From Betaproteobacteria bacterium HGW-Betaproteobacteria-3 (GTDB lineage Bacteria > Pseudomonadota > Gammaproteobacteria > Burkholderiales > Burkholderiaceae_C): a DNA stretch of 64,000 nt. The stretch covers positions 1-64,000 of the forward strand of contig PHCI01000003.1 in the NCBI GenBank assembly GCA_002842205.1. The letters run 5' to 3'. The number at the start of each line of letters is the position of its first letter. Position 1 is the stretch's first letter. Below are positions 26,790 to 42,391 of this stretch, in pieces. A program made the position numbers and the translations under genes. The notes under the pieces are model-generated. The model was given only the letters and a program-made list of their open reading frames with translations. It searched no databases and was not told where the DNA came from.

Positions 26790-27878
<1,089 letters not shown>

Positions 27879-27900
27879 CGGGTCGCACCGGTCTGCCTCC

Positions 27901-28464
27901 ATGACGACACTTCGCCCTTCGATTCAGGTTGCGGTGATCATGCGCCGCAAACGCACCGTGGGTGCTTCAAGCCGGTGGCAGCCGTTTCAGTGGGGTCTGG
28001 CCGATGTGGTCGCGCACGAGGAGAGCTTTGGCAGCGTGCCGCGCATGCTGTTCCGCAACGACGATGAGGAGCGTTGGCTGCATCCGGGCTTCACGGTCAC
28101 GCTGTTCAGTGACGACGCCGAAGGCTACTACCTCAACGTCACGACCGACGCGCCCTGCTGGTGGGTGATGTGGCGCATGGAGGAAGAAGCCCAGTTGTCC
28201 GACGAGCCCATGCCCTTGCCGCAACTGGTGTCCTTGAGCTATCACGACGCCGGTCGTCTGCTGGACGCGCAGGAAAAAGTCGAACAGGTGCCGGCCTCGC
28301 CGGCCATTGTCGAGTGGGTGCAGGCGTTTGTGGACACCCATTACCAGCCCGAGCCTCGCCGCCGCCAGCGACCCGAAAGCTTCAAGTCGCTGCAGGACCG
28401 CTTTGGCAACCCGGCCTCGGTGAGCACGGGCAAGAAATACGGTGGGAGTGGCAGCGATGGCTGA
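27901..28464 (+). CDS. DUF3305 protein, formate dehydrogenase accessory
   Basis: 187 residues from the ATG at 27901. The sequence MRRKRTVGASSRWQPFQWGL with later PRMLFRNDDEERWLHPGF matches DUF3305. Members occur beside DUF3306 and polyferredoxin genes in formate dehydrogenase loci. No signal peptide or metal motif is visible, so it is probably cytoplasmic. The stop overlaps the start of the DUF3306 gene. The molecular role is not known to me. Confidence 0.82.
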   Translation: MTTLRPSIQVAVIMRRKRTVGASSRWQPFQWGLADVVAHEESFGSVPRMLFRNDDEERWLHPGFTVTLFSDDAEGYYLNVTTDAPCWWVMWRMEEEAQLSDEPMPLPQLVSLSYHDAGRLLDAQEKVEQVPASPAIVEWVQAFVDTHYQPEPRRRQRPESFKSLQDRFGNPASVSTGKKYGGSGSDG

Positions 28465-29200
28465 CGGCTTCCTCGGGCGCTGGTCGCGCCGGAAGATCGA
28501 CGCGCTGCAGGGCAAGCCGCCGCAAGAGCCGCCTCCGGCGCCTGCATCGCCCGTGCCAGCCGCACCCGCCGTTGCAGCCGTGAACGTCCAGGATGCGCGT
28601 TCCTTGACACCCGCCGATGGGGATGAGGCCGCCACGGGCACGCCCGAAACGCCTGCAGCGCCGCCCCCGACGCTGGAAGACGCACAAAGTCTCACACCCG
28701 AGTCCGACTTCAAGCCCTTCATGACCCGCGGCGTGACCAGCGAGGTCAAGAACGCGGCCATGAAAAAGCTCTTTGCCGACCCCCATTTCAATGTGATGGA
28801 CGGGCTGGACATCTACATCGACGATTACAACCAGTTCACGCCGCTTCCGGCGGCCTCGCTGGCCAAAATGGCGAGTGCCAAATTTCTCGGCCTGGTCGAA
28901 GACGACGAAGCTCCCGATCCCTCCAAGGACGCGGCAACGCACGCGCCTCCCACCGCTGCCACCGAGACACCCATGCCCCGGGATGATGCGGATACCGCCG
29001 CGCCGCAATCCGTGGCACAGTCGGACGCCGACGCGGGCCAACCCGCACCCCCCGCCTTACCGGCCGAACCTTCCAGCTTACCCGCTTCGCCGTTGCCTAC
29101 CAGCACGGCAGCCAGCCCCACCGACCATGCCCACACTGATTTGCGACTGCAACCAGACGATGCCGCTCCAGTCCCCAGCCCTCGGCAAGGCGCTGGATGA
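28457..29200 (+). CDS. DUF3306 protein, formate dehydrogenase accessory
   Basis: 247 residues from the ATG at 28457, inside the end of the DUF3305 gene. It opens MADGFLGRWSRRK and has a folded centre with SDFKPFMTRGVTSEVKNAAM and FADPHFNVMDGLDIYIDDYN, both typical of DUF3306. N-terminal and C-terminal parts are Pro/Ala-rich and probably disordered. The end overlaps the polyferredoxin gene by 74 bp, an unusually long overlap. The exact function is not established. Confidence 0.82.
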   Translation: MADGFLGRWSRRKIDALQGKPPQEPPPAPASPVPAAPAVAAVNVQDARSLTPADGDEAATGTPETPAAPPPTLEDAQSLTPESDFKPFMTRGVTSEVKNAAMKKLFADPHFNVMDGLDIYIDDYNQFTPLPAASLAKMASAKFLGLVEDDEAPDPSKDAATHAPPTAATETPMPRDDADTAAPQSVAQSDADAGQPAPPALPAEPSSLPASPLPTSTAASPTDHAHTDLRLQPDDAAPVPSPRQGAG

Positions 29201-31217
29201 AACGCTGACGCTTCACACCACGCTGTGCCGCCGGGAAGCTGGCGCCTTCCAGCAGGCCATCCGGGGCGGGGACGACGTGGTCGTGGCCTGTACCCAGGAA
29301 AAACGCCTGTTCACCGAACTGGCCGAGCAGACCGAGGGGGCCACGTCGGTGATCCGCTTCGTGAACATCCGCGAAACCGGTGGCTGGGGTGAAGACGCCG
29401 GGCGCAGCAGCCCGAAAATCGCGGCCCTGCTGGCGGCCGCCCAGCTGCCCGACCCCGAGCCAGTGCCCACCGTCACCTACAAAAGCGCAGGCCGTCTGCT
29501 GGTCATCGGGTTGCTGGACGAGGCGGAGCGCGTGGCCGACGCCGTGGCCGACGTGCTGGACGTCACGCTCTTTGCCACCGGCCCCGGCGCGGCCGGTGGG
29601 GCGCAAGAGCGGCGCTACCCCGTGTTGGGTGGCAAGGTGAACGCGCTGACCGGCTGGCTGGGCGCGTTCGAGTTCAAGTGGTTGCGCGACAATCCGATCG
29701 ATCTGGACCTGTGCACCCGATGCAACGCCTGCGTGGCTGCCTGCCCCGAGCAGGCCATCGGGCTCGATTACCAGATCGATCTGGCCGCCTGCCAATCGCA
29801 CCGCAGTTGCGTCAAGGTGTGCCAGGTGGCGGGGGCCATTGATTTCGCCCGCGACCCGCAGGAAGAATCCGACACCTTCGACCTGGTGCTCGATTTGCGC
29901 CCGGCCCCGGCCATGGCCCGCCATGCGCTGCCGCAAGGCTATTTCCACCACGACGTGCGCAAGGCGGCGCTGCCATTGGCCACCGTGCTGCGGCTGCGTG
30001 AACTGGTGGGCGAGTTCGAGAAGCCCAAATTCTTCCTCTACAAGCAAAAGCTCTGCGCCCACAGCCGCAACGAAACCGTGGGCTGCAACGCCTGCGTGGA
30101 CGTGTGTTCGGCCGAGGCCATCAGCAGCGAAAAATCCAGGCAGCAGATCAAGGTCAACCCCAACCTGTGCGTGGGCTGCGGTGCCTGCACCACCGTGTGC
30201 CCGACCGGCGCCCTGACCTACGCCTACCCGCGCGCCAGCGAACAGGGCGTCAAGCTCAAGACGCTGCTGGCCACCTATGCCCGGGCCGGCGGCAAGGACG
30301 CCGCCCTGCTGTTGCACAGCCAGGAACGCGGGCAGGCACTGATCGGGCAGCTGGGTCGGGCGGCCCAGCTGAAGTGCGCCAAAGGGGTGCCGGCGCGTGT
30401 GATCCCCGTGCCCCTGTGGCACACCGCCAGCCTGGGGCTGGACGTGTGGCTCAGCGCCATTGCGTTTGGCGCGTCGCAGGTGGCGGTGCTCATCACCGAC
30501 GAAGAGGCGCCGCAATATGTTCAGGGCCTGAAAGACCAGATGGCGGTGGCGCAAACCATCCTCAATGGTCTGGGCTACACCGGCACGCATCTGCATCTGC
30601 TGCACGCCACCGACCCCGAATCGCTCGACTTTGCATTGCAGTCACTGGGGCAAACGCAGCAGAAACTGCCGGCAGCGGCCGGGCGTTTTGCCGTGGCCCA
30701 GGAAAAGCGCAGCACACTGGAGATGGCGCTGGACCATCTGGCGGAACACGCGCCGCTCAAGCCAGAAGCCATTGCCCTGGCCGCGGGCGCGCCGTTCGGC
30801 TCGGTGACCGTCAACAAGGACACCTGCACGCTGTGCCTGAGCTGCGTGAGCGCCTGCCCGGCCAGCGCGCTGCAGGACAACCCGCAACTGCCGCAACTGC
30901 GCTTTCTGGAGAAGAATTGCGTGCAATGCGGGCTGTGCGTCAGCACCTGCCCCGAAGACGCCATCACGCTGGCGCCCCGCCTGCTGCTGACGCCGCAACG
31001 CAAGGAGGCGCGGGTGCTCAATGAAACGCAGCCCTACGCCTGCGTGCGCTGCGGCAAGCCGTTTGGCACGCTCAAGGCCATCGAGGCCATGCTGGGCAAG
31101 CTGGCGGGCCACGCCATGTTTCAGGGCGCGGCCGTGGAGCGCCTCAAGATGTGCGGCGACTGCCGCGTGATCGACATCTACTCGTCGCAGAACGAATCCA
31201 AAATCACCGACCTATGA
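29127..31217 (+). CDS. Multi-cluster 4Fe-4S ferredoxin (polyferredoxin) of the FDH locus
   Basis: 696 residues from the ATG at 29127. Six ferredoxin-like cysteine groups are seen: CTRCNACVAACP (about 196), CQSHRSCVKVC (about 221), CNACVDVC (about 320), CVGCGACTTVCP (about 348), CTLCLSCVSACP (about 566) and CVQCGLCVSTCP (about 598). A final CVRC...CGDC pair may bind another metal. No membrane segment is seen, so it probably works in the cytoplasm. Relatives sit in formate dehydrogenase loci and are thought to serve electron transfer or enzyme maturation. A longer frame open from 28875 is DUF3306 shadow. Confidence 0.85.
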   Translation: MPTLICDCNQTMPLQSPALGKALDETLTLHTTLCRREAGAFQQAIRGGDDVVVACTQEKRLFTELAEQTEGATSVIRFVNIRETGGWGEDAGRSSPKIAALLAAAQLPDPEPVPTVTYKSAGRLLVIGLLDEAERVADAVADVLDVTLFATGPGAAGGAQERRYPVLGGKVNALTGWLGAFEFKWLRDNPIDLDLCTRCNACVAACPEQAIGLDYQIDLAACQSHRSCVKVCQVAGAIDFARDPQEESDTFDLVLDLRPAPAMARHALPQGYFHHDVRKAALPLATVLRLRELVGEFEKPKFFLYKQKLCAHSRNETVGCNACVDVCSAEAISSEKSRQQIKVNPNLCVGCGACTTVCPTGALTYAYPRASEQGVKLKTLLATYARAGGKDAALLLHSQERGQALIGQLGRAAQLKCAKGVPARVIPVPLWHTASLGLDVWLSAIAFGASQVAVLITDEEAPQYVQGLKDQMAVAQTILNGLGYTGTHLHLLHATDPESLDFALQSLGQTQQKLPAAAGRFAVAQEKRSTLEMALDHLAEHAPLKPEAIALAAGAPFGSVTVNKDTCTLCLSCVSACPASALQDNPQLPQLRFLEKNCVQCGLCVSTCPEDAITLAPRLLLTPQRKEARVLNETQPYACVRCGKPFGTLKAIEAMLGKLAGHAMFQGAAVERLKMCGDCRVIDIYSSQNESKITDL

Positions 31218-31831
31218 CGCGCAACATCCCCGTTTCATCCGCCCTCGACGAAGAAACCGCCCGCGCCGAAATCTACGGCCTGCTGGCGCAACTCTATTAC
31301 GCGCCGCCGTCGCCTGACGTGCTGGCGCAGTTGCGCGTGGCCGCCACCGAGGCGCCCGCTCCCGGCGGCTTCCTGGAGGAGCCCTGGCGCGAACTGGTGG
31401 GGGCGGCCCGTGAGCGCGACGACCGGCAAATCCACGATGAGTTTGACGCCCTGTTTGGCGGCGTGGGCAAGCCCGAAATCTATGTGTTTGGCTCGCATTA
31501 CCTGAGCGGTTTCCTCAACGAGAAGCCGCTGGCCAAACTGCGGGGCGACCTGGCCCGCTTGGGGCTCGACCGCGATGAAACCATGTCCGAGACCGAAGAC
31601 CACATCGCCTACCTGTGCGAGGTGATGCGCTTCCTGATTGCCGGTGACGACGTGGCGGTGTCCAACCTCACCCATCAACGCGAATTCTTTGCCGCCCACC
31701 TGCAACCCTGGGCCAACACCCTGTGCGACGCCCTGGCGGCGCATCCCAAGGCCGGGTTTTACGCCGCGCTGGCCGGCTTCACGCGTGCTTTCCTGAGCGT
31801 CGAGGCGCAGGGCTTTGACATGCTGCCTTGA
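31214..31831 (+). CDS. TorD/DmsD family molybdoenzyme chaperone
   Basis: 205 residues from the ATG at 31214, in an ATGA overlap with the polyferredoxin gene. All-helical sequence with the TorD-type region RQIHDEFDALFGGVGKPEIYVFGSHYLSGF. Such chaperones bind Tat signal peptides and hold molybdoenzymes until the cofactor is loaded. Its likely client is the FDH alpha subunit encoded at 36032, or the Tat small protein. It closes the accessory operon and repeat A copy 5 follows. Confidence 0.85.
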   Translation: MTRNIPVSSALDEETARAEIYGLLAQLYYAPPSPDVLAQLRVAATEAPAPGGFLEEPWRELVGAARERDDRQIHDEFDALFGGVGKPEIYVFGSHYLSGFLNEKPLAKLRGDLARLGLDRDETMSETEDHIAYLCEVMRFLIAGDDVAVSNLTHQREFFAAHLQPWANTLCDALAAHPKAGFYAALAGFTRAFLSVEAQGFDMLP

Positions 31832-31845
31832 GGGTCAGCGGGATC

Positions 31846-31905
31846 AATTTCAAAGCTTTTTTGGCCTCAAGCCCCCGTCGGATGGCGTTAGTTTGCTTCT
31901 AAATT
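31846..31905 (-). repeat. Dispersed repeat A, copy 5 (contains kinase stop codon)
   Basis: Reverse copy: AGCCCCCGTCGGATGG then GTTAGTTTGCTTCTAAATT. The kinase stop TAG (31899-31901 on the minus strand) lies inside it. It separates the convergent chaperone and kinase genes. Confidence 0.88.
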
Positions 31906-33947
31906 GGTAGCGGGCGACCGTTGTTGGTGGTGGCACCCGAAGCGTCGGGAACGCGCGGCTCGGTCCACAGGCGGATGGTGAAGACCGCGCCGGTGGCGCC
32001 CGGCGGCAGACCGGTCTGGTTGGCGGCGTCAATGCTGCCGCCGTAACGTTCCACCAGGCCCTGGCTGATCCACAACCCGAGCCCGTTGCCGTCGTTCTTG
32101 GTGGTGAAAAACGGACGAAACAACTTCTCCCGCACCGGGTCGGGCAGGCCCGTGCCGGTGTCCAGCACATGAATGCACACGCCACGGCCACCGTCCGGGT
32201 CGGCCCAGTCGCGGGTGCGCAAGGTCAGCGTGCCGCCGTCGGGCATGACCTGAATGGCGTTGACCATCAGGTTGATCACCACCTGCTGCAGTTCCTGCCG
32301 GTTGATGCCGACCCGCAGGCTGGCCTGCAGGTCCTGCGCCACGGCGATTCCCGTGTGTTCCAGCAGGTGGCTGACCAGCACCAGGCAGTCCTGCAGCGTG
32401 CGGTTGACGTCAACGGCATCCACATAGCCTGCGTATTCGGTCGGGCGCGCGTACTGCAGCAGCTGCGTCACGATCAGCCGCATGCGATTGACCTGTTCGT
32501 CCATCAGGCGCAACTCGGCAGCGACGGGTTGCGCGTGATCGCCCAGAGTTTCGCGCATCAGGTCCAGATTGCCCTGAATCACGGCGATGGGGTTGTTGAT
32601 CTCGTGCGCCACGCTGGCGGTGAGCTGGCCAATGGCCGCAAGCTTTTCGGATTTGACCAGCTGGTTCTGCGCTTGCTGCAGCGAGGCGTTGCTGGCAGCC
32701 AGCTCCGCGGTGCGTTCGGCCACTTTCTGGTCCAGCTCGCCAGCCCAACGCTGCAGCGCCCGGGTCTTGTCGTCGATCACGTCCAGCAACTGGTCCAGGT
32801 GGGTGGCCAGCGCGCCAAGTTCATCCTGCGCGCCAACCGTGCCCACGCGCGCCCCGGCGTCACCGTCTTCCACCCGCTGCATGGTGCGGTTCATTTGCTC
32901 GACCGGCCGGAAAATACTGCGCGCCCACCGCACTGAAAACACCGCTGAGAGCGCCATCACCAGCAAAAAGATCGCGCCCACCAGCCCCAGCATGCCGTAC
33001 TTGATCCAGCGGAACGGCTCTTCCAGGTAACCCACATACAGCACGCCGATGCGCTCGCCCACGTCGTTGCGCAGTGGCTCGTAGGCTGAAACGTACCAGT
33101 CGTTCACCACGAAGGCGCTGTCCAGGAAGGTTTCGCCGCGGCCCAGCACCGCATCGCCCACCTGCCGGGAGATTCGGGTCCCGATGGCACGCTGGTCCTG
33201 GAACAGCCGCACGTTGGTGGTGATGCGCACATCGTCCATGAACAGGGTGGCGGTACCCTGGCTTCCAAAGGGCAGCGAGCCGTTCGGGTAGACGATGCGG
33301 TTGATGTGGTCGATGAAGGGCAGATTCTGGTTCAGCAGCACGCCGCCGCGCAGCACGGCAATGACCTGGCCATGGTCGTCCAGCACGGGCGCGGTGGCCA
33401 CGATCACCATGGCGCGGTCTTCCAGTGCGCGATCGGTGGGGGCCGCGTTGCGCGTGGGCACCAGGGGGATGCGCAGGCGCTCGCCCAGATGCGGGGCCAG
33501 CGGCAGAAACTCGGCGTTGGGCAGCACCGCCAGTCGGGCGACCACCCTGCCGCCCGAGTACACCAGTGGCACCTCGCCAGGGGCATACACCTGCAGGAAG
33601 TCCAGGCCCAGGCGTTCACGGGCCTCGGTCAACAGCGTGGCGGTCCGCGGCCTGGTCGTCGGGGCACCCGCTGCGCCGGTGGCCGTGCTGGTGGTGCCCA
33701 GCGCCTGCAGCAGGGCATGCGACGCCGCCACCGACTCGGTGCCCGAGCCGACTTCGCTGACGACCTGCTCAAAGTAACCGTGGGCCACCGCCAGGTCGGC
33801 CCGCACCTTCGCAATCAGCAGCCGGTCGTAGGCCGCGTTGCTCCAGAGCAGCAACACCAGCATCATGAGCGGCAACACCACCAGCAGCGGCAGCAGGGCC
33901 ATGGCCAGCAGTTTGTTGCGCACCGACTGGCGAAGCCAGCGGGTCAA
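31899..33947 (-). CDS. Membrane sensor histidine kinase of the FDH locus
   Basis: About 682 residues if started at TTG 33947, just after the regulator stop at 33955. GTG 33923 is another choice, and the only in-frame ATG upstream (34109) lies deep in the regulator gene. One N-terminal helix (MALLPLLVVLPLMMLVLLLW), a large periplasmic sensor of double-Cache type, a second helix and a HAMP segment come first. The HisKA box SVAHEINNPIAVIQGN (His near 445) and an ATPase domain (GNGLGLWISQGLVERYGG) follow. It probably phosphorylates the adjacent sigma54 activator. The signal is unknown; formate or another small acid is a guess. Confidence 0.85.
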   Translation of the reverse strand: MTRWLRQSVRNKLLAMALLPLLVVLPLMMLVLLLWSNAAYDRLLIAKVRADLAVAHGYFEQVVSEVGSGTESVAASHALLQALGTTSTATGAAGAPTTRPRTATLLTEARERLGLDFLQVYAPGEVPLVYSGGRVVARLAVLPNAEFLPLAPHLGERLRIPLVPTRNAAPTDRALEDRAMVIVATAPVLDDHGQVIAVLRGGVLLNQNLPFIDHINRIVYPNGSLPFGSQGTATLFMDDVRITTNVRLFQDQRAIGTRISRQVGDAVLGRGETFLDSAFVVNDWYVSAYEPLRNDVGERIGVLYVGYLEEPFRWIKYGMLGLVGAIFLLVMALSAVFSVRWARSIFRPVEQMNRTMQRVEDGDAGARVGTVGAQDELGALATHLDQLLDVIDDKTRALQRWAGELDQKVAERTAELAASNASLQQAQNQLVKSEKLAAIGQLTASVAHEINNPIAVIQGNLDLMRETLGDHAQPVAAELRLMDEQVNRMRLIVTQLLQYARPTEYAGYVDAVDVNRTLQDCLVLVSHLLEHTGIAVAQDLQASLRVGINRQELQQVVINLMVNAIQVMPDGGTLTLRTRDWADPDGGRGVCIHVLDTGTGLPDPVREKLFRPFFTTKNDGNGLGLWISQGLVERYGGSIDAANQTGLPPGATGAVFTIRLWTEPRVPDASGATTNNGRPLPI

Positions 33948-33954
33948 GGGCCGA

Positions 33955-35352
33955 TCAGGAAATGGCCCAGTCCGCACAGCGTCGCTCCAATGTGCGGCGC
34001 GAGATGCCCAGCAACTGCGCAGCGCGGGTCTTGTCGCCCTGCACCGAATCCAGGACCGACAGAATGTGCTGCTTCTCGCGCGTCTGCAGGTCGGTGGCGT
34101 GGGGCGCATCTCCGGGCGCGGCCGGCACGTCGTCTGTGGATCGCGACAGCGAATACAGCGCCGACACGTTGAGTGCGCCCAGAATCAGCGAGCGCTCCAT
34201 CAGGTTGCGCAGTTCGCGCACATTGCCGGGCCAGTCGTACTGCATGAGGTAGTCCATCTCGGTGGCCGAAAGTGTCAGGGGCTCGACGCCCAGAACCGGC
34301 GCGAGCTGGGCCGTGAAGTGCGCGACGAGATGCGGAATGTCGTCCTTGTGCTCGCGCAACGGGGGCAGCGTGAGCTCGACGACCTGCAGCCTGAAGTACA
34401 GGTCCTTGCGAAAGCGCCCGGCACGCACCGCTTCGGCCAGCGAGCGGTTGGTGGCCGCCACGATGCGGACATTGACGGGGATCAGCTGCTCGCTGCCCAC
34501 GGGCCGGATCTTGAGATCTTCCAGCGCCCGCAGCAGCGTGGCTTGCAGCGCCAGCGGCAGCTCGGCCACCTCGTCCAGAAACAGGGTCCCGCCCTGCGCG
34601 TAGTGGAACAGGCCGTCGCGCGCCTTGACGGCGCCCGAGAAAGCCCCCCGCGCATGGCCAAACAACTCGGACTCGATCAGCTCGGGCGACATGGACGCGC
34701 AGTTGACCGGCACGAACGGCCCGCTGGCGCGCGGGCTCAGGGCGTGCAGGGCACGTGCCGCCAGTTCCTTGCCGGTGCCCGATTCACCCTGCAGCAGCAC
34801 GGTGCTGTTGACGGGCGCCACGCGCCGCAGTGCGTGCGCCAGTTGCGTCATGGCGGGCGACACGCCGATCAACCCGTCGGCGCCGTCCGCTGGCGCGGGC
34901 AGGCTGCGGCGCAGCACGTAGTTCTCGCGGGCCAGCCGCGAACGCTCGTAGCACTGCTTCACCGCGTTCAGGATCTGCGGCACCCGAAAGGGCTTGAGGA
35001 TGAAGTCCGACGCGCCCGCGCGCAGCGCCTCGATGGCAGTCTCCAGGTCGGCAAACGCGGTGATCAGGATGACGTCGCCCGAGAAGCCCTGTTCGCGCAA
35101 CTCCTTGAGCCAGGCCACGCCGCTGCGCCCGGGCAGCGAAATGTCCAGAATGATCAGATCCACATGGTGTCCGCGCAGCATCTCGGCGCCTTCCTCGGCG
35201 CTGCCCGCGCTCATGACGAACTGACAGCGGGGGACCAGCGTCTTCACCAGGAAGTTGCGCATGCCCTGTTCGTCGTCGACCACCAGGATCGACCAGAACG
35301 GCCAGCCTTCATGGGGTTTTTCAGCGTGGGAAGGTGGGGTGTTGGGGGTCAA
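33955..35352 (-). CDS. Sigma54-interacting response regulator of the FDH locus
   Basis: 465 residues. Receiver domain (21-135) with phospho-acceptor Asp70 in DLIILDISLPG. AAA+ domain with Walker A GESGTGKE and the sigma54-contact loop ARGAFSGA. A Fis-type helix-turn-helix ends the protein (RAAQLLGISRRTLERRCADW). It is encoded just before its kinase and is divergent from the FDH operon. The gap between contains two inverted repeats and a -24/-12 promoter, which fits direct activation of fdh. Confidence 0.93.
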   Translation of the reverse strand: MTPNTPPSHAEKPHEGWPFWSILVVDDEQGMRNFLVKTLVPRCQFVMSAGSAEEGAEMLRGHHVDLIILDISLPGRSGVAWLKELREQGFSGDVILITAFADLETAIEALRAGASDFILKPFRVPQILNAVKQCYERSRLARENYVLRRSLPAPADGADGLIGVSPAMTQLAHALRRVAPVNSTVLLQGESGTGKELAARALHALSPRASGPFVPVNCASMSPELIESELFGHARGAFSGAVKARDGLFHYAQGGTLFLDEVAELPLALQATLLRALEDLKIRPVGSEQLIPVNVRIVAATNRSLAEAVRAGRFRKDLYFRLQVVELTLPPLREHKDDIPHLVAHFTAQLAPVLGVEPLTLSATEMDYLMQYDWPGNVRELRNLMERSLILGALNVSALYSLSRSTDDVPAAPGDAPHATDLQTREKQHILSVLDSVQGDKTRAAQLLGISRRTLERRCADWAIS

Positions 35353-35498
35353 GGTGTGTGTCCGGAAGGCAAAATTCTATCGACCTGGGGGGGTATCGGG
35401 TCAGGGTATGCCCTTGGGTTGAGCCATTTAAGTGGGGTGATTGCAGCCCATTTTCAGTCGCTCCTGTCGGGCGCTCCAGCGCGCAAGGCGCGCGCCGT

Positions 35499-35515
35499 CG
35501 CGACAGTTTGTCGCG
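35499..35515. promoter_or_regulatory. Candidate enhancer site 1 for the sigma54 activator
   Basis: Perfect inverted repeat CGCGACA-GTT-TGTCGCG. It lies about 120 bp upstream of the -24/-12 promoter, a normal distance for an activator enhancer. Site 2 has the same design 22 bp away. Confidence 0.72.
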
Positions 35516-35520
35516 CCTCT

Positions 35521-35537
35521 TGCGACAGAGTGACGCG
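35521..35537. promoter_or_regulatory. Candidate enhancer site 2 for the sigma54 activator
   Basis: TGCGACAGAGTGACGCG matches site 1 at 13 of 17 positions. Centre-to-centre spacing of 22 bp places both on one face of the helix, as for tandem activator dimers. Confidence 0.68.
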
Positions 35538-35610
35538 TTGTCGGTGCGGTGAATCGAATGCATGGCGTTCAAGTGTTTGATTTTTCAGGCATTACCCGCC
35601 ATCACTTAGG

Positions 35611-35626
35611 TGGCACGATTGCTGCT
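35611..35626 (+). promoter_or_regulatory. Sigma54 (-24/-12) promoter of the FDH operon
   Basis: TGGCACGATTGCTGCT matches the consensus TGGCACG-N4-TTGCW with one mismatch and the exact GG-N10-GC spacing. Transcription would start near 35638, leaving a leader of about 165 bases before the Tat small-protein gene. No good alternative sigma70 promoter is seen in 35353-35802. Confidence 0.75.
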
Positions 35627-35802
35627 GTCTCGAAATTGGAGCGCGTCAACGCTGCGCTGCAGCATGGCCCTGCACAGACCGCAGAGGGCGTGGAAGATTG
35701 ATGGGTTGGGTGTTTGGCCCACTTGTGAAGGCTTGCGCGCATTGATACATTTAACCCGTTATGCATTTCAGTTCCTATGTGGAACCTACCAGGAGATCAC
35801 GC

Positions 35803-36009
35803 ATGAGCCAGCCCCCAAGCAAGCTATCGCGGCGGACACTGTTCGCCGGAGCCACCGGCGTCGGTGCCGTTGCAGCCGCAGCCAGCCTGCTGCCATCGGT
35901 CCGCGAGATCGCCCCGCTGCCTGCGCAGCCCAAGGCGATGCCGGAAAAAGGTGGTGGATACAGCCTGACGGACCACGTCAAGCAGTACTACAAGACCACC
36001 CTCGTTTAA
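35803..36009 (+). CDS. Small twin-arginine signal protein of the FDH operon
   Basis: 68 residues from the ATG at 35803, with AGGAG seven bases upstream. The ATG at 35761 lacks a ribosome site. The sequence SRRTLFAGATGVGAVAAAAS is a Tat signal, followed by about 35 residues (PAQPKAMPEKGGGYSLTDHV then KQYYKTTLV). Similar short Tat proteins precede formate dehydrogenase alpha genes in many proteobacteria. Function is unknown; it may escort or occupy the chaperone. It lies 22 bp before the alpha subunit. Confidence 0.85.
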   Translation: MSQPPSKLSRRTLFAGATGVGAVAAAASLLPSVREIAPLPAQPKAMPEKGGGYSLTDHVKQYYKTTLV

Positions 36010-36031: not shown

Positions 36032-38989
36032 ATGTTGTTGACCAAAAAATCTGGCGCTGCCGACGGCAAAGCCCTCTCGCCGTTTGTGCACAGCCTGCGC
36101 CGCGGCCTGTCCAATGCACTTCCCACCATGGACCGCCGCGCGTTTTTGCGCCGCTCGGGCCTCGGGGTGGGCGTCGGTATTGCGGCATCGCAATTGACGC
36201 TGGTGAAAAAGGCCCACGCTGCGGGCGACAAAGGCGTGGCCGTGGGGGCCGGCAAGGTGGAAGTCAAGCGCACCGTCTGCTCCCACTGCTCGGTGGGCTG
36301 CGCGGTGGACGCCGTGGTGGAAAACGGCGTCTGGGTCCGTCAGGAGCCGGTGTTTGACTCGCCGCTGAACCTGGGCGCGCATTGCGCCAAGGGGGCTGCG
36401 TTGCGCGAGCACGGCCATGGTGAATACCGTCTGCGCTACCCGATGAAGCTGGTCAACGGAAAATATGAGCGCATCAGCTGGGATGTGGCGCTCAACGAAA
36501 TCAGTGCGCGCATGCTGGAGCTGCGCAAAGCCAGCGGCCCTGACAGCGTCTATTTTGTCGGCTCGTCCAAGCACAACAACGAGCAGGCGTACCTGATGCG
36601 CAAGTGGGTCAGCCTGTGGGGCACCAACAACTGCGACCACCAGGCGCGCATTTGCCACTCCACCACGGTGGCCGGTGTGGCCAACACCTGGGGCTACGGC
36701 GCCATGACCAATTCGTACAACGACATGCAAAACAGCAAGGTCGCCCTGTACATTGGCTCCAACGCCGCCGAAGCGCACCCGGTTTCCCTGTTGCACATGC
36801 TGCACGCCAAGGAGACCGGCACCAAGATGATCGTGGTCGATCCGCGCTTCACGCGCACCGCCGCCAAGGCCGACCATTACGTGCGCATCCGCTCGGGGAC
36901 CGACATTCCGTTCCTGTTCGGCGTGCTGTACCACATCTTCAAGAACGGCTGGGAAGACCAGAAGTACATCAACGACCGCGTCTACGGCATGGACAAGGTC
37001 AAGGAAGACGTGCTTGCCAAATGGACACCCGACAAGGTCTTCGAGGCCTGCGGTGCGGATGAAGCCACGGTGTTCAACGTGGCCAAGATCATGAACGAAA
37101 GCCGTCCTGGCACCATCGTCTGGTGCATGGGGCAAACCCAGCACACCATCGGCAACGCCATGGTGCGTGCCTCCTGCATCTTGCAGCTGGCGTTGGGCAA
37201 CGTGGGCAAGTCGGGTGGTGGCGCCAACATCTTCCGCGGCCACGACAACGTGCAGGGCGCCACCGACGTCGGCCCCAATCCGGATTCGCTGCCGGGCTAT
37301 TACGGCCTGGCCGAAGGTTCGTGGAAGCACTTCGCCAAGGTCTGGGGCGTTGACTTTGAGTGGATCAAGGGCCGCTATGCGCCGGGCATGCTCAGCAAGC
37401 CAGGCATCACGGTGTCGCGCTGGATCGACGGCGTGCTCGAAAAGAACGAGCTGATCGACCAGGATTCCAACCTGCGCGGCGTGTTCTTCTGGGGCCATGC
37501 GCCCAACTCGCAGACGCGCGGTCTGGAGATGAAGCGCGCCATGGACAAGCTGGACCTGCTGGTGGTGGTGGACCCGTATCCGTCAGCCACCGCGGCCATG
37601 GCAGCGATGCCTGGCAAGGCCGAAGACCTCAATCCGAATCGTGCGGTGTACCTGTTGCCGGCCGCCACCCAGTTCGAGACCAGTGGCTCGGTCACGGCGT
37701 CCAACCGTTCCATCCAGTGGCGCGAGAAAGTGATCGAACCCCTGTGGGAAAGCCGCAGCGATCACATGATCATGCACCAGTTCGCCCAGAAGCTTGGCTT
37801 TGGCACCGAGTTCACCAAGAACTTCAAGATGCAGAAAGTCAACGGCATGGACGAGCCCATGCCCGAGGAGATCCTGCGCGAGATCAACAAATCGGTCTGG
37901 ACCATTGGCTACACCGGGCAAAGCCCGGAGCGGCTCAAGGCCCACATGCGCAACATGCACCTGTTTGACGTGAAAACGCTCAAAGCCAAGGGTGGTACGG
38001 ACAAGGAAACCGGCTATGACTTTACCGGCGACTACTTCGGCCTGCCGTGGCCGTGCTTTGGCAACCCCTCGCTCAAGCACCCGGGCTCGCCCAACCTGTA
38101 CGACACGTCCAAGCACGTGATGGACGGCGGGGGCAACTTCCGCGCCAACTTTGGCGTGGAACGCGACGGCAAGAACCTGCTGGCCGAAGACGGCTCGCAT
38201 TCCCTGGGGTCCGAGATCACCACCGGCTACCCTGAGTTTGACCACGTGCTGCTGAAAAAGCTCGGCTGGTGGGACGACCTGTCCGACGCTGAGAAAGCCG
38301 CTGCCGAAGGCAAGAACTGGAAGACCGACCTGTCGGGCGGCATCCAGCGGGTGACCATGGCCCACGGCTGCCATCCGTTTGGCAATGCCAAGGCACGGGC
38401 GCTGGTCTGGAACTTCCCCGACCCGGTGCCGCAACACCGCGAGGCGCTGTACAACACCCGTCCGGACCTGACCGCCAAGTACCCCACGCACGCCGACAAG
38501 AACGCGTTCTGGCGTCTGCCCACGCTGTTCAAGACCGTGCAGGACAAGAACGTGGCCGACAAGATCCACGAGAAGTTCCCGCTGATTCTGAGCTCGGGGC
38601 GTCTGGTCGAATACGAAGGCGGCGGCGAGGAAACCCGCTCCAACCCCTGGCTGGCCGAGTTGCAGCAGGAGGCCTTTGTCGAAATCAATCCCAAGGCAGC
38701 GGCCGACCGCGGCATCCGCAACGGTGAGCAGGTCTGGCTCACGTCGCCCACCGGCGCACGCCTCAACGTGCAGGCGCTGGTGACCGAGCGTGTGGACGCC
38801 GGCACCTGCTGGATGCCGTTCCACTTCTCCGGGCGCTGGCAAGGCGCCGACATGCTGGCGTTCTATCCCAATGGCGCGGCACCGGTGGTGCGGGGTGAGG
38901 CGGTCAATACGGCCACCACCTACGGTTACGACGCCGTGACCATGATGCAGGAAACCAAGACGACGATCTGCAACGTCGAGAAAGCCTAA
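36032..38989 (+). CDS. fdhA: Formate dehydrogenase alpha subunit, Cys-type, Tat-exported
   Basis: 985 residues, with TGGAGAG before the ATG. The Tat signal is RRAFLRRSGLGVGVGIAASQ after an unusually long leader of about 33 residues. The 4Fe-4S motif is CSHCSVGC with a later Cys (AHCAKGA). The molybdenum/tungsten ligand is Cys208 (RICHSTTVAGVANT), where other enzymes use selenocysteine. The conserved His follows. The enzyme oxidises formate to CO2 with a bis-MGD cofactor, here on the periplasmic side. Beta, lipoprotein, gamma and secreted-protein genes follow in one operon. Confidence 0.96.
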   Translation: MLLTKKSGAADGKALSPFVHSLRRGLSNALPTMDRRAFLRRSGLGVGVGIAASQLTLVKKAHAAGDKGVAVGAGKVEVKRTVCSHCSVGCAVDAVVENGVWVRQEPVFDSPLNLGAHCAKGAALREHGHGEYRLRYPMKLVNGKYERISWDVALNEISARMLELRKASGPDSVYFVGSSKHNNEQAYLMRKWVSLWGTNNCDHQARICHSTTVAGVANTWGYGAMTNSYNDMQNSKVALYIGSNAAEAHPVSLLHMLHAKETGTKMIVVDPRFTRTAAKADHYVRIRSGTDIPFLFGVLYHIFKNGWEDQKYINDRVYGMDKVKEDVLAKWTPDKVFEACGADEATVFNVAKIMNESRPGTIVWCMGQTQHTIGNAMVRASCILQLALGNVGKSGGGANIFRGHDNVQGATDVGPNPDSLPGYYGLAEGSWKHFAKVWGVDFEWIKGRYAPGMLSKPGITVSRWIDGVLEKNELIDQDSNLRGVFFWGHAPNSQTRGLEMKRAMDKLDLLVVVDPYPSATAAMAAMPGKAEDLNPNRAVYLLPAATQFETSGSVTASNRSIQWREKVIEPLWESRSDHMIMHQFAQKLGFGTEFTKNFKMQKVNGMDEPMPEEILREINKSVWTIGYTGQSPERLKAHMRNMHLFDVKTLKAKGGTDKETGYDFTGDYFGLPWPCFGNPSLKHPGSPNLYDTSKHVMDGGGNFRANFGVERDGKNLLAEDGSHSLGSEITTGYPEFDHVLLKKLGWWDDLSDAEKAAAEGKNWKTDLSGGIQRVTMAHGCHPFGNAKARALVWNFPDPVPQHREALYNTRPDLTAKYPTHADKNAFWRLPTLFKTVQDKNVADKIHEKFPLILSSGRLVEYEGGGEETRSNPWLAELQQEAFVEINPKAAADRGIRNGEQVWLTSPTGARLNVQALVTERVDAGTCWMPFHFSGRWQGADMLAFYPNGAAPVVRGEAVNTATTYGYDAVTMMQETKTTICNVEKA

Positions 38990-38999
38990 GGAGACCGCA

Positions 39000-39623
39000 A
39001 TGGCACGGATGAAATTTGTATGCGACGCCGAGCGCTGCATTGAATGCAATGGCTGCGTTACGGCTTGCAAGAACGAGCACGAAGTTCCCTGGGGTGTGAA
39101 CCGCCGACGGGTGGTCACGCTCAATGACGGTGTCCCGGGTGAGAAGTCGATTTCAGTGGCCTGCATGCACTGCTCCGACGCGCCCTGCATGGCCGTCTGC
39201 CCGGTCAACTGCTTCTACCGCACCGACGAAGGCGTGGTGCTGCACGACAAGGACGTGTGCATCGGCTGCGGCTACTGCAGCTACGCCTGCCCGTTCGGCG
39301 CACCGCAGTTTCCGTCGCAAGGCACGTTTGGTGTGCGCGGCAAGATGGACAAGTGCACCTTCTGCGCCGGTGGGCCCGAAACCCACGGCAGCCAGGCCGA
39401 GTTCGAGAAATACGGGCGTAACCGGCTGGCCGAAGGCAAACTGCCGGCCTGCGCCGAAATGTGTTCCACCAAGGCCCTGCTGGCCGGTGACGGTGACGTG
39501 GTGGCCGACATCTTCCGCAACCGCGTGCTCAAGCGCGGCAAGGGTGCCGAAGTCTGGGGCTGGGGCACCGCTTACGGGTCCAAGCAAGCCGGTCAACCGC
39601 CAGTGGCAGGAGCCAAGTCATGA
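39000..39623 (+). CDS. fdhB: Formate dehydrogenase beta subunit, four 4Fe-4S clusters
   Basis: 207 residues. Four cysteine groups are present: CIECNGCVTACKNEHE, CMHCSDAPCMAVCP, CIGCGYCSYACP and CTFC...CAEMC. This is the usual electron wire from the molybdenum subunit to cytochrome b. Unlike the E. coli FdnH protein it has no C-terminal membrane helix. It lies 10 bp after the alpha gene and its stop overlaps the lipoprotein start. It has no signal peptide and is presumably exported with alpha through Tat. Confidence 0.95.
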   Translation: MARMKFVCDAERCIECNGCVTACKNEHEVPWGVNRRRVVTLNDGVPGEKSISVACMHCSDAPCMAVCPVNCFYRTDEGVVLHDKDVCIGCGYCSYACPFGAPQFPSQGTFGVRGKMDKCTFCAGGPETHGSQAEFEKYGRNRLAEGKLPACAEMCSTKALLAGDGDVVADIFRNRVLKRGKGAEVWGWGTAYGSKQAGQPPVAGAKS

Positions 39624-39856: not shown

Positions 39857-41029
39857 ATGCTTCGGTCATTTCTTGCTACAGCAATAGTAGCGCTCAGTTT
39901 GTGCGGAGGTGCCTTCGCACAAAACAAGCTGCAGGTGGAACCGGTGCAACCGGCCGCGCCTGCTGCCCCTGCGACGGGCGGCATCCAGAGCCAGAACATC
40001 TTTGAGGTCAAGCCGGACGCCAGCGCCGACCCCAAATATGCCGGGCAGACGAATGCCGAGCGCGCCAAAGTGCAGCCCGGCAACAACGCGCCCATGTGGC
40101 GGGCTGTGGGCCAGGGCACGACAGGGTATTCGAGCCTGCCCAAAAGCGAAGCGCCAGAGGCCGGCAACCTGATCCAGCCGTTTGTGCAGTATCCGGGTTC
40201 GCGGCTGACCACGGCCGGTGAGGCCTGGCGCCAGGCGCGCAACAACTGGATCATCCCTTATGGTGGTTCGCTGCTGTTGATCGTTCTGGGTGCGGTGGCC
40301 CTGTTTTACTGGCGCAAGGGCACGATCGAGTTGCATGGTGCCCAGACCGGCCGCACGATCGAACGCTTCACGCCGTTTGAGCGTTCGGCCCACTGGGCCA
40401 ACGCGATTGCCTTCAGCGTGCTGGCCATCTCCGGCATCGTCATGGCGTTTGGCAAGTTCTTCATCCTTCCGGTGATTGGCAGCACGCTGTTCGGCTGGTT
40501 GACCTATGCCCTGAAAAACGCTCACAATTTTGCCGGCCCGTTGTTCGCGGTGTCCCTGCTGATTGTGTTCATCACGTTCGTCAAGGACAACCTGCCAGGC
40601 AAGGGCGACCTGACCTGGCTGCTGCACGGGGGTGGCATGTTCTCCAGCAAGGAAGTGCCGTCACACCGCTTCAACGCAGGTGAGAAGGTGCTGTTCTGGG
40701 CCGGTGTGCTGCTGTTGGGTGCTGTAGTGGTCGGTTCGGGCCTGGTGCTGAACAAGCTCGTTCCTGGCCTGATTTACGAGCGTTCCACCATGCAGATTGC
40801 CAACATGATTCATGGTGTGGCCTCCGCGCTCATGATGGCCATGTTCATCGGGCACATCTACATGGGCACCATCGGCATGCGTGGCGCCTACCAGGCCATG
40901 CGGACCGGTTACGTGGATGAAACCTGGGCGAAAGAGCACCACGAATACTGGTACGACGACGTCAAGGCCGGCAAGATCCCGGCCCAGCGCACCCAGCCCG
41001 CAGCGCCCACCCAGACCGCACGGGCCTGA
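39857..41029 (+). CDS. fdhC: Formate dehydrogenase gamma subunit, cytochrome b556
   Basis: 390 residues. A signal peptide (SFLATAIVALSLCGGAFAQ) and about 110 residues of periplasmic sequence come first, then five hydrophobic segments. Likely haem-b ligands are His in ERSAHWANA, NAHNFAG and NMIHGVAS. It takes electrons from beta and reduces quinone in the membrane. The Pro/Ala-rich N-terminal domain is much longer than in E. coli FdnI but is seen in other long gamma subunits. It is followed by a 33-bp gap and the secreted-protein gene. Confidence 0.92.
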   Translation: MLRSFLATAIVALSLCGGAFAQNKLQVEPVQPAAPAAPATGGIQSQNIFEVKPDASADPKYAGQTNAERAKVQPGNNAPMWRAVGQGTTGYSSLPKSEAPEAGNLIQPFVQYPGSRLTTAGEAWRQARNNWIIPYGGSLLLIVLGAVALFYWRKGTIELHGAQTGRTIERFTPFERSAHWANAIAFSVLAISGIVMAFGKFFILPVIGSTLFGWLTYALKNAHNFAGPLFAVSLLIVFITFVKDNLPGKGDLTWLLHGGGMFSSKEVPSHRFNAGEKVLFWAGVLLLGAVVVGSGLVLNKLVPGLIYERSTMQIANMIHGVASALMMAMFIGHIYMGTIGMRGAYQAMRTGYVDETWAKEHHEYWYDDVKAGKIPAQRTQPAAPTQTARA

Positions 41030-41479: not shown

Positions 41480-42391
41480 ATGAAGCAACGTCCTGCCCCT
41501 CCAAGACTGACGCAGGCCCGGGCGCCGCTGACCCGGGAGATCGAGGTCGTTAACCAGCATGGCGAACGCAACACGATCTCCATCCCGGCCGAACGTGTGC
41601 TCACGGTCTATGTGGACAAGCGAGAGCTGGTGACGCTCATGACCTTGGGCGGCCACCCCGAACTGCTGGTGCTGGGCTACCTGCGCAACCAGCGGCTCGT
41701 CCGTTCGGTGGACGACATCGATTCGATCACCGTCGATTGGGACGTGGGCGAAGGCCCGCTGGGTGACGCCGGTGCGGCCGCGGTCAAGACGCGCCACGGC
41801 ATCGCGCAGATTGAAGAGCGCACCGCCAGGCGGGTGGTGACCACCGGCTGCGGGCAGGGCAGCGTGTTCGGGGCGCTGATGGACGATCTGGACGCGGTGA
41901 ACCTGCCACCCGCCACCCTCACGCAGGCCCAGCTTTACGGCATCCTGGGCGCCATCCGGCAGCAGGAGAGCACCTACAAATCGGCCGGATCGGTCCACGG
42001 CTGTGCGCTGTTTCGTGGCGAAGAGATGCTCATCTTCATCGAGGACGTGGGCCGCCACAACGCCATCGACACCATCGCGGGCTGGATGTGGCTGCAGCAT
42101 GGCGATGATGCGACCGCCGCCGCGCCCGGCACTGCCATGACGGGCGCTGACAAGGTGTTCTACACCACGGGTCGGCTGACCAGCGAAATGGTCATCAAGT
42201 CGGCGCAGATGGGCGTGCCCATTGTGGTTTCGCGCAGCGGCATCACCCAGATGGGCCATGAGGTCGCGCAGCATCTGGGCCTGTGCACCATTGGCCGTGC
42301 CACGAACAAGCACTTTGTCTGCTACACCGCCCCCGAGCGGCTTTGGATGCAGCCTGAACTGGCCGGCGCCAGGCTGCGTGCACCGGCCTGA
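41480..42391 (+). CDS. fdhD: FdhD, sulfurtransferase for formate dehydrogenase
   Basis: 303 residues. FdhD moves sulfur from IscS to the bis-MGD cofactor so the enzyme becomes active. The active loop reads TTGCGQGSVFG. The E. coli protein has a C-x-x-C pair here, but this one has a single Cys with Gly at the second place. The later motif EDVGRHNAIDTIAGW is well conserved. It is separated from the structural genes by a terminator, so it may have its own promoter or depend on read-through. Confidence 0.95.
   Translation: MKQRPAPPRLTQARAPLTREIEVVNQHGERNTISIPAERVLTVYVDKRELVTLMTLGGHPELLVLGYLRNQRLVRSVDDIDSITVDWDVGEGPLGDAGAAAVKTRHGIAQIEERTARRVVTTGCGQGSVFGALMDDLDAVNLPPATLTQAQLYGILGAIRQQESTYKSAGSVHGCALFRGEEMLIFIEDVGRHNAIDTIAGWMWLQHGDDATAAAPGTAMTGADKVFYTTGRLTSEMVIKSAQMGVPIVVSRSGITQMGHEVAQHLGLCTIGRATNKHFVCYTAPERLWMQPELAGARLRAPA

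Follow-up and report, generated by a model that had tools for sequence, protein, structure and literature searches.

A predicted two-component circuit for formate dehydrogenase control in Burkholderiales, with repeated loss of the sigma-54 loop among orthologous regulators

The formate-responsive sigma-54 activator FhlA of E. coli binds formate itself and is not known to depend on a kinase. That formate dehydrogenases are under predicted sigma-54 control has itself been published already, in a regulon survey that lists these enzymes among the sigma-54 targets of Proteobacteria and that, in the part available, names no regulator, operator or sensor for them (PMC12316311). In the limited selection of literature that we searched, we found no published account of the kinase-regulator pair described here at fdh genes. 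The stretch analysed, 64 kb of Burkholderiales DNA (the window), carries such a pair divergent from a formate dehydrogenase gene cluster, and a sequence-only reading of it had proposed that sensor, regulator, palindromes and sigma-54 promoter act in one line upon formate dehydrogenase. Phylogenetic footprinting across relatives supports that chain, and we consider it likely that fdh is under dedicated, probably formate-responsive two-component control via a palindrome pair and a sigma-54 promoter, with a probable added start of sigma-70 type. The present analysis adds a predicted formate sensor, a probable second promoter and the repeated loss of the sigma-54 loop within the family.

The locus is laid out as follows (window positions).

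31902-34109, minus strand: sensor histidine kinase with sCache_3_3, HAMP, HisKA and HATPase domains (domain matches)
33958-35352, minus strand: NtrC-type response regulator with receiver, AAA+ domain carrying a GAFSGA loop, and Fis-type helix-turn-helix; divergent from fdh
35499-35515, no strand: palindrome 1, predicted response-regulator binding site (sequence and conservation in relatives)
35521-35537, no strand: palindrome 2, weaker, 22 bp from palindrome 1
35611-35626, plus strand: predicted sigma-54 promoter (-24/-12), TGGCACGATTGCTGCT, 11/12; inferred transcription start about 35637
35723-35751, plus strand: predicted proximal sigma-70-type promoter, conserved, TTGTGA at 35723-35728 and TACATT at 35746-35751; inferred start about 35759
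35760-35777, no strand: conserved 18-bp dyad TATGCA-N6-T(T/G)(C/A)(C/A)TA directly 3' of the proximal -10; possible second operator
35803-36009, plus strand: fdhX, encoding a small twin-arginine protein that resembles formate_TAT (40.2 bits, short of the 48.45 cut-off)
36032-38989, plus strand: fdhA, formate dehydrogenase alpha subunit, molybdopterin enzyme (TIGR01591, 467.7 bits, under the cut-off of that equivalog)
39000-39623, plus strand: fdhB, formate dehydrogenase FDH3 beta subunit (NF038355, 341.6 bits, above the cut-off of 240)
39857-41029, plus strand: fdhC, formate dehydrogenase gamma subunit, cytochrome b (above cut-off)
41480-42391, plus strand: FdhD-type sulfurtransferase (Pfam FdhD-NarQ, above cut-off)

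A small open reading frame without a Pfam match lies between fdhC and the FdhD gene, and a second block to the left of the kinase, at 27637-31831, holds genes for DUF3305, DUF3306, multi-Fer4 and TorD-like chaperone proteins. Where the pair is absent from an fdh locus, Fer4 and TorD genes often stand directly 5' of fdhX (about 30 of 49 loci, judged by eye). A short hairpin, GTTCC-TATGT-GGAAC, is found at 35771-35785, after the proximal start and ahead of the ribosome site, and similar hairpins were seen by eye, uncounted, in L050, L096, L097 and L046.

Palindrome 1, CGCGACAGTTTGTCGCG, has a 7-3-7 layout with all seven arm pairs matched, and palindrome 2, TGCGACAGAGTGACGCG, is identical to it at 13 of 17 positions and pairs five of seven arm positions; the 22 bp from start to start agree with the two 17-bp inverted repeats described from the letters alone. 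The earlier placement of the repeats about 120 and 100 bp upstream was roughly right: they start 112 and 90 bp before the start of the -24 element, and their centres lie about 130 and 108 bp from the inferred transcription start, while the regulator start codon is 147 bp from the palindromes. The pattern CGCGACANNNTGTCGCG has a single exact match in the 3.77-Mb genome. Allowing two mismatches gives 66 genome sites compared with 134 for a reversed control pattern, so loose matches elsewhere in the genome carry no meaning (none was seen before the Fer4/TorD operon among the 100 of 132 places listed in that search), and the case for the palindrome rests on its conservation in relatives rather than on a single-genome count. 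A chance origin was considered and rejected, since conservation at the fdh loci of relatives weighs against it.

Recurrence of the repeats upstream of fdh in relatives had been set beforehand as a test. The FDH3 beta subunit scored above cut-off in 72 of 150 family genomes and 71 loci were taken, G041:C290, which begins at a contig end, being left out; apart from L093, which is without an fdhA match, these comprise 21 loci and the window with the divergent pair and 49 loci without it, of which 46 were counted and three had too little upstream DNA. The palindrome YGCGACANNNTGTCGCR, with at most one mismatch, is present at 19 of the 22 FDH3 loci with the divergent pair and at 2 of the 46 without (mean of 0.0 of 22 loci in mono-shuffled controls), and the palindrome thus tracks the divergent regulator across fdh loci. 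One of the two exceptions (L066) comes from a genome, G057, that encodes the regulator elsewhere (66% identity, E 1.6e-185); among 11 other no-pair genomes searched for the regulator, 10 were without a match at 1e-90 and one had a match of 40%. The other exception (L038) is a single site with one mismatch immediately before the start codon.

A search of a larger set, 399 family genomes, at E<=1e-125 located the regulator at 78 places in 77 genomes, and every place was inspected. The regulator is divergent to FDH3 at 52 of these, with the palindrome at up to one mismatch in 45, and at 13 others it adjoins another FDH-like molybdoenzyme with 26-31% identity to fdhA; here the palindrome, at the same threshold, is found near 9 of the 13 regulators. 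The remaining 13 have no fdhA within the fetched stretch. Ten of the 13 other FDH-like alpha genes carry an in-frame TGA at the selenocysteine position: in nine the first in-frame TGA coincides with the selenocysteine position of FDH-N, and the tenth (L146, its gene taken from the overlapping stretch L210) scores 1514 bits as FDH-N alpha with the TGA read through. The loci with a TGA-bearing FDH alpha beside an orthologous pair are L112, L124, L126, L128, L130, L135, L141, L142, L146 and L147.

Eleven genomes in which the regulator is not beside fdh served as a test in trans (L114 and L150, at contig ends, were set aside). A perfect palindrome stands upstream of FDH3 (77-84% identity) in nine of these 11 genomes, at a distance of about 5 kb to more than 200 kb or on a separate contig, G171 and G272 being the two without one. 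In none of the 11 do the 1200 bp ahead of the regulator gene contain a palindrome with at most one mismatch. The nine trans sites are 9 of 18 exact sites inspected in 12 genomes, in which 20 exact palindromes were found (2 without a locus) against 13 for the reversed control pattern. Given nine of 11 against none of 11, the palindrome accompanies the regulator in trans as well as in cis, and its target is fdh and not the gene of the regulator itself. That the palindromes might instead serve autoregulation is suggested by their position between divergent genes, close to the regulator start; the distribution in the trans genomes makes this extremely unlikely. It is likewise very improbable that the palindromes are sites for some unrelated transcription factor and accompany the pair by descent only. 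Orthologous loci do share ancestry and binding by the regulator is itself a prediction, but the palindrome precedes fdh where the regulator is encoded elsewhere, is seldom found at fdh loci that have no pair and also occurs beside a different type of FDH. Co-occurrence with the pair thus leads us to predict that the palindromes are binding sites of the response regulator.

The candidate promoter TGGCACGATTGCTGCT, scored against the sigma-54 -24/-12 consensus, matches 11 of 12 consensus positions with a GG-N10-GC core and is one of only two such sites at 11/12 or better on both strands of the 64 kb. Among FDH3 loci, a site of at least 10/12 is present at 10 of the 22 that have the pair and at 2 of the 46 that do not; a threshold of 9/12 anywhere in 700 bp is less selective (14/22 versus 12/46). 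When a site of at least 9/12 was sought 60-200 bp downstream of the best palindrome, 33 loci could be counted, and in 16 of them, from several clades, the site lies 111-114 bp from the upstream palindrome; the approximately 112 bp seen in the window is thus the commonest spacing. Helical phasing of these distances is not claimed: a 10.5-bp period is strong over all 33 distances, but p is about 0.02 once each of the 19 distinct values is counted singly, and about 0.15 once those at 111-114 are also removed, which leaves 15. A single rpoN match was found in the window's genome, and rpoN is present in 52 of 55 genomes tested (of the 77), including 48 of 48 well-assembled ones. From an 11/12 site at the commonest spacing we infer that the window's fdh promoter uses sigma-54.

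A sigma-70 start for fdh had been named by the sequence-only reading as the observation that would count against it. A predicted sigma-70-type promoter does exist at 35723-35751, and the sigma-54 site is conserved as well. The proximal promoter has a 17-bp spacer with TG preceding the -10, and its inferred start lies 44 bp before the fdhX start codon. Across 97 of 98 loci (L082, where no fdhX start was found, was left out), a TTGNNN-N17-(TANANT-like) promoter with a spacer of exactly 17 is present in 40, whereas every other spacer length between 13 and 21 gives at most two loci and shuffled sequences average 0.5; the pattern was drawn up post hoc from aligned upstream regions, with the spacer series as its control. 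A standard promoter scan reported no sigma-70 site in the region, the proximal promoter having been missed because it has only 8/12 matches. As this conserved promoter lies nearer fdhX, fdh probably has two promoters, one of sigma-54 and one of sigma-70 type, and sigma-54 need not provide the sole start. The proximal promoter is about equally common with the pair (23/52) and without it (17/45), and therefore looks basal. The 18-bp dyad beside it, also a post hoc pattern with shuffles as control, scores at least 11/12 in 39 of 97 loci (shuffled mean 0.25), some of which have the pair and some not, and is perhaps a second operator.

The domain search finds receiver, Sigma54_activat and Fis-type helix-turn-helix domains all present in the regulator, and the GAFSGA loop noted earlier was confirmed as GHARGAFSGAVKA within the Sigma54_activat domain. 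The available text of a Desulfovibrio study lists GAFSGA as a variant expected to keep activity (PMC4641369), and the window's own loop is probably functional; the protein does not fit the sigma-54-independent NtrC type of R. capsulatus and Caulobacter, as a GAFTGA-type loop is kept in the form of GAFSGA. Within the family, however, the loop GA[FY][TSA]GA is kept in 33 of 78 orthologues and lost or altered in 45, while Walker A, Walker B, the arginine finger and the helix-turn-helix are kept (22 loci aligned first). Outside the family 24 matches were found, six of them without a locus, and all 18 class-level orthologues inspected have GAFTGA; loss within the family is therefore probably derived. 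A distant loss of the loop was also seen in L292, from a Paracoccaceae genome. A tree built without the loop demands at least seven changes of loop state.

A strict rule by which loss of the loop entails loss of the sigma-54 promoter was tested and rejected. Sorted by loop and by site (at least 9/12 within 60-200 bp of the palindrome), the fdh3 loci comprise 20 with both, 6 with the loop only, 10 with the site only and 16 with neither, and the simple rule fails because 6 of 26 loop-intact loci are without a site and 10 of 26 loop-less loci have one; an independent-pairs test of loop against site was not significant (four supported pairs; six on all branches). The sigma-54 part of the circuit is accordingly not universal: the loop is kept without a site of at least 9/12 in L029, L037, L050 and L102, from the window's own 10-row sub-clade, and is lost in many orthologues. 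All members of a 23-row clade (support 94, not starred) have lost the loop, and no sigma-54 site of at least 9/12 is seen at the 14 fdh3 loci of the clade; its palindromes, three of which have two or three mismatches, are centred 111-160 bp before the start codon, a position that would suit contact with the sigma-70 polymerase.

GAFTGA-less NtrC proteins have been reported to act at sigma-70 promoters (PMC10274813, PMC12421884, as far as the available parts of these studies go), and the regulator might likewise activate the proximal sigma-70 promoter by contacting housekeeping RNA polymerase while the -24/-12 site decays. Conservation of the exact 17-bp spacer, the presence of a sigma-70-type promoter in the four loop-bearing loci of the window's sub-clade that have no sigma-54 site, and the 23-row clade all speak in favour of such a mechanism. 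For the window itself we nevertheless regard it as unlikely, given the GAFSGA loop, the near-consensus sigma-54 site at the commonest spacing, a distance of about 250 bp between its palindrome and the sigma-70 start, and a proximal promoter that does not track the regulator.

A 9-row clade shows a different combination, with the loop lost and a -24/-12 site kept in 9/9, at 98-144 bp from the palindrome (L040, L123, L132, L136, L041, L055, L110, L115 and L114). In these sites TGG and TTGCT are invariant while spacer and flanks vary; the search demanded GG, GC and a total of 9/12, the invariant T positions not being individually demanded. Either another activator fires these promoters or the loop-less regulators can do so. 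Among enhancer-binding paralogues in G056, G105, G024 and G062, compared at their C-termini by eye (four were unreadable by the pattern used), none stood out as a substitute for the loop-less regulator. The Caulobacter study ties sigma-54 gene activation to a GAFTGA-less NtrC (PMC12421884), and the Desulfovibrio study still counts a GVATGV regulator among its predicted sigma-54 activators (PMC4641369), both in the parts available. We tentatively raise the possibility, which we hold to be rather doubtful, that repeated loop loss with the palindromes kept marks steps from a sigma-54 to a sigma-70 activator, and that in the nine-locus clade a loop-less regulator still works with a similarly spaced -24/-12 promoter. 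If true, the latter would represent sigma-54 activation without GAFTGA.

The signal of the circuit is suggested by the kinase. Its sensor domain is an sCache_3_3 domain (PF17202, 102.5 bits, cut-off 28.8; stretch 33012-33335), and outside the HAMP stretch just two PDB entries match the sensor sequence at E<0.01, namely 8py1 (E 3.9e-5 in a profile search, 8.4e-4 in a single-sequence search) and 8py0 (1.6e-4 and 6.1e-4), both chemoreceptor sensor domains, with 8py0 titled as formate-bound. Changes to R142, T145 and T158 of PacF affect formate binding according to the available part of one report (PMC12501870), and Arg295, Thr298 and Thr311 of the kinase (Arg codon at 33225-33227) match these residues, the +3/+16 spacing (Arg-x2-Thr-x12-Thr) being shared by PacF, the kinase and the aligned 8py0 and 8py1. 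In 168 of 169 kinase rows, drawn from two collections in which genomes may repeat, all three residues are retained at the aligned positions; the strict spacing is missed by 3 of 12 kinases, and some aligned rows carry insertions between the residues. A gut receptor with an sCache_3_3 domain and these residues is reported to have bound formate (PMC12415202, in the part available). Since the motif is common in other sCache_3_3 proteins (6 of 8 tested from the same genomes), it is a sign of the domain family and not of this kinase in particular. With the closest sequence relatives of known structure being 8py1 and 8py0, one of them formate-bound, and the formate residues kept, formate is the likely signal.

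It is possible, if the less probable reading, that the kinase senses something else, such as another small carboxylate or, through a binding protein, tungstate or molybdate. Foldseek lists 8py0 below several LuxQ and CitA structures (for a model of moderate confidence, pLDDT 69), and some distant orthologues neighbour TupA-like, MobA and MoeA genes; the sequence relationship to 8py0 and 8py1 and the retention of the reported formate residues point back to formate. Outside the family, distant pair orthologues in L201, L203 and L266 lie near tungstate-transport-like and molybdopterin genes: TupA falls below cut-off in L203 and L266, L201 has a solute-binding protein and an ABC ATPase, MobA is present in L203, and MoeA in L203 and L266. 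In the few neighbourhoods annotated, these genes, together with FDH-like ones, are in keeping with a molybdenum/tungsten formate dehydrogenase theme.

We propose the following mechanism of how the circuit might operate. Periplasmic formate would probably be bound by the sCache_3_3 domain of the kinase, as its family and residues suggest, and the kinase, as is usual for its family, would phosphorylate the NtrC-type regulator. The regulator is predicted from co-occurrence to bind the palindrome pair, TGCGACA-N3-TGTCGCA, and in this lineage its GAFSGA loop would open the sigma-54 promoter about 112 bp downstream, which may drive fdhX-fdhA-fdhB-fdhC and perhaps fdhD, an operon suggested by gene order and strand. 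The conserved sigma-70-type promoter would probably supply a basal or separately controlled start.

A circuit of this kind, which would put a membrane formate dehydrogenase under the command of formate in the periplasm, is testable and could serve formate and CO2 biotechnology in Burkholderiales; the palindrome offers a handle for finding the regulon. Loss of sigma-54 dependence is directly testable as well, since a single operator is common to close orthologues that have the loop and to ones that do not, which allows loops, promoters and spacings to be swapped.

Compared with known systems, the window regulator displays the features of NtrC/AtoC/ZraR-type sigma-54 regulators, namely receiver, AAA+ Sigma54_activat domain, Fis-type helix-turn-helix and -24/-12 promoter, with two palindromes placed at about 110-130 bp from the inferred start. 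It differs from them in having its own palindrome and an FDH target, and it falls under the cut-off of all among the 25 of 112 families listed (best AtoC, 384 of 714 bits). With FhlA it shares an AAA+ sigma-54 activator set over formate metabolism genes; unlike FhlA, the window circuit is predicted to sense formate by a membrane kinase. PacF and the 8py0/8py1 Cache sensors (PMC12501870, PMC12415202, in the parts available) show the same sCache_3_3/Cache_3 sequence relation and Arg-x2-Thr-x12-Thr arrangement, but these are chemoreceptors, whereas the window protein is a histidine kinase. The GAFTGA-less NtrC proteins of Rhodobacter capsulatus and Caulobacter act with sigma-70 without the loop, by the available accounts (PMC10274813, PMC12421884), as many orthologues here may also do; the loss described here is instead scattered inside one family, with the operator mostly kept, and the window protein itself carries GAFSGA.
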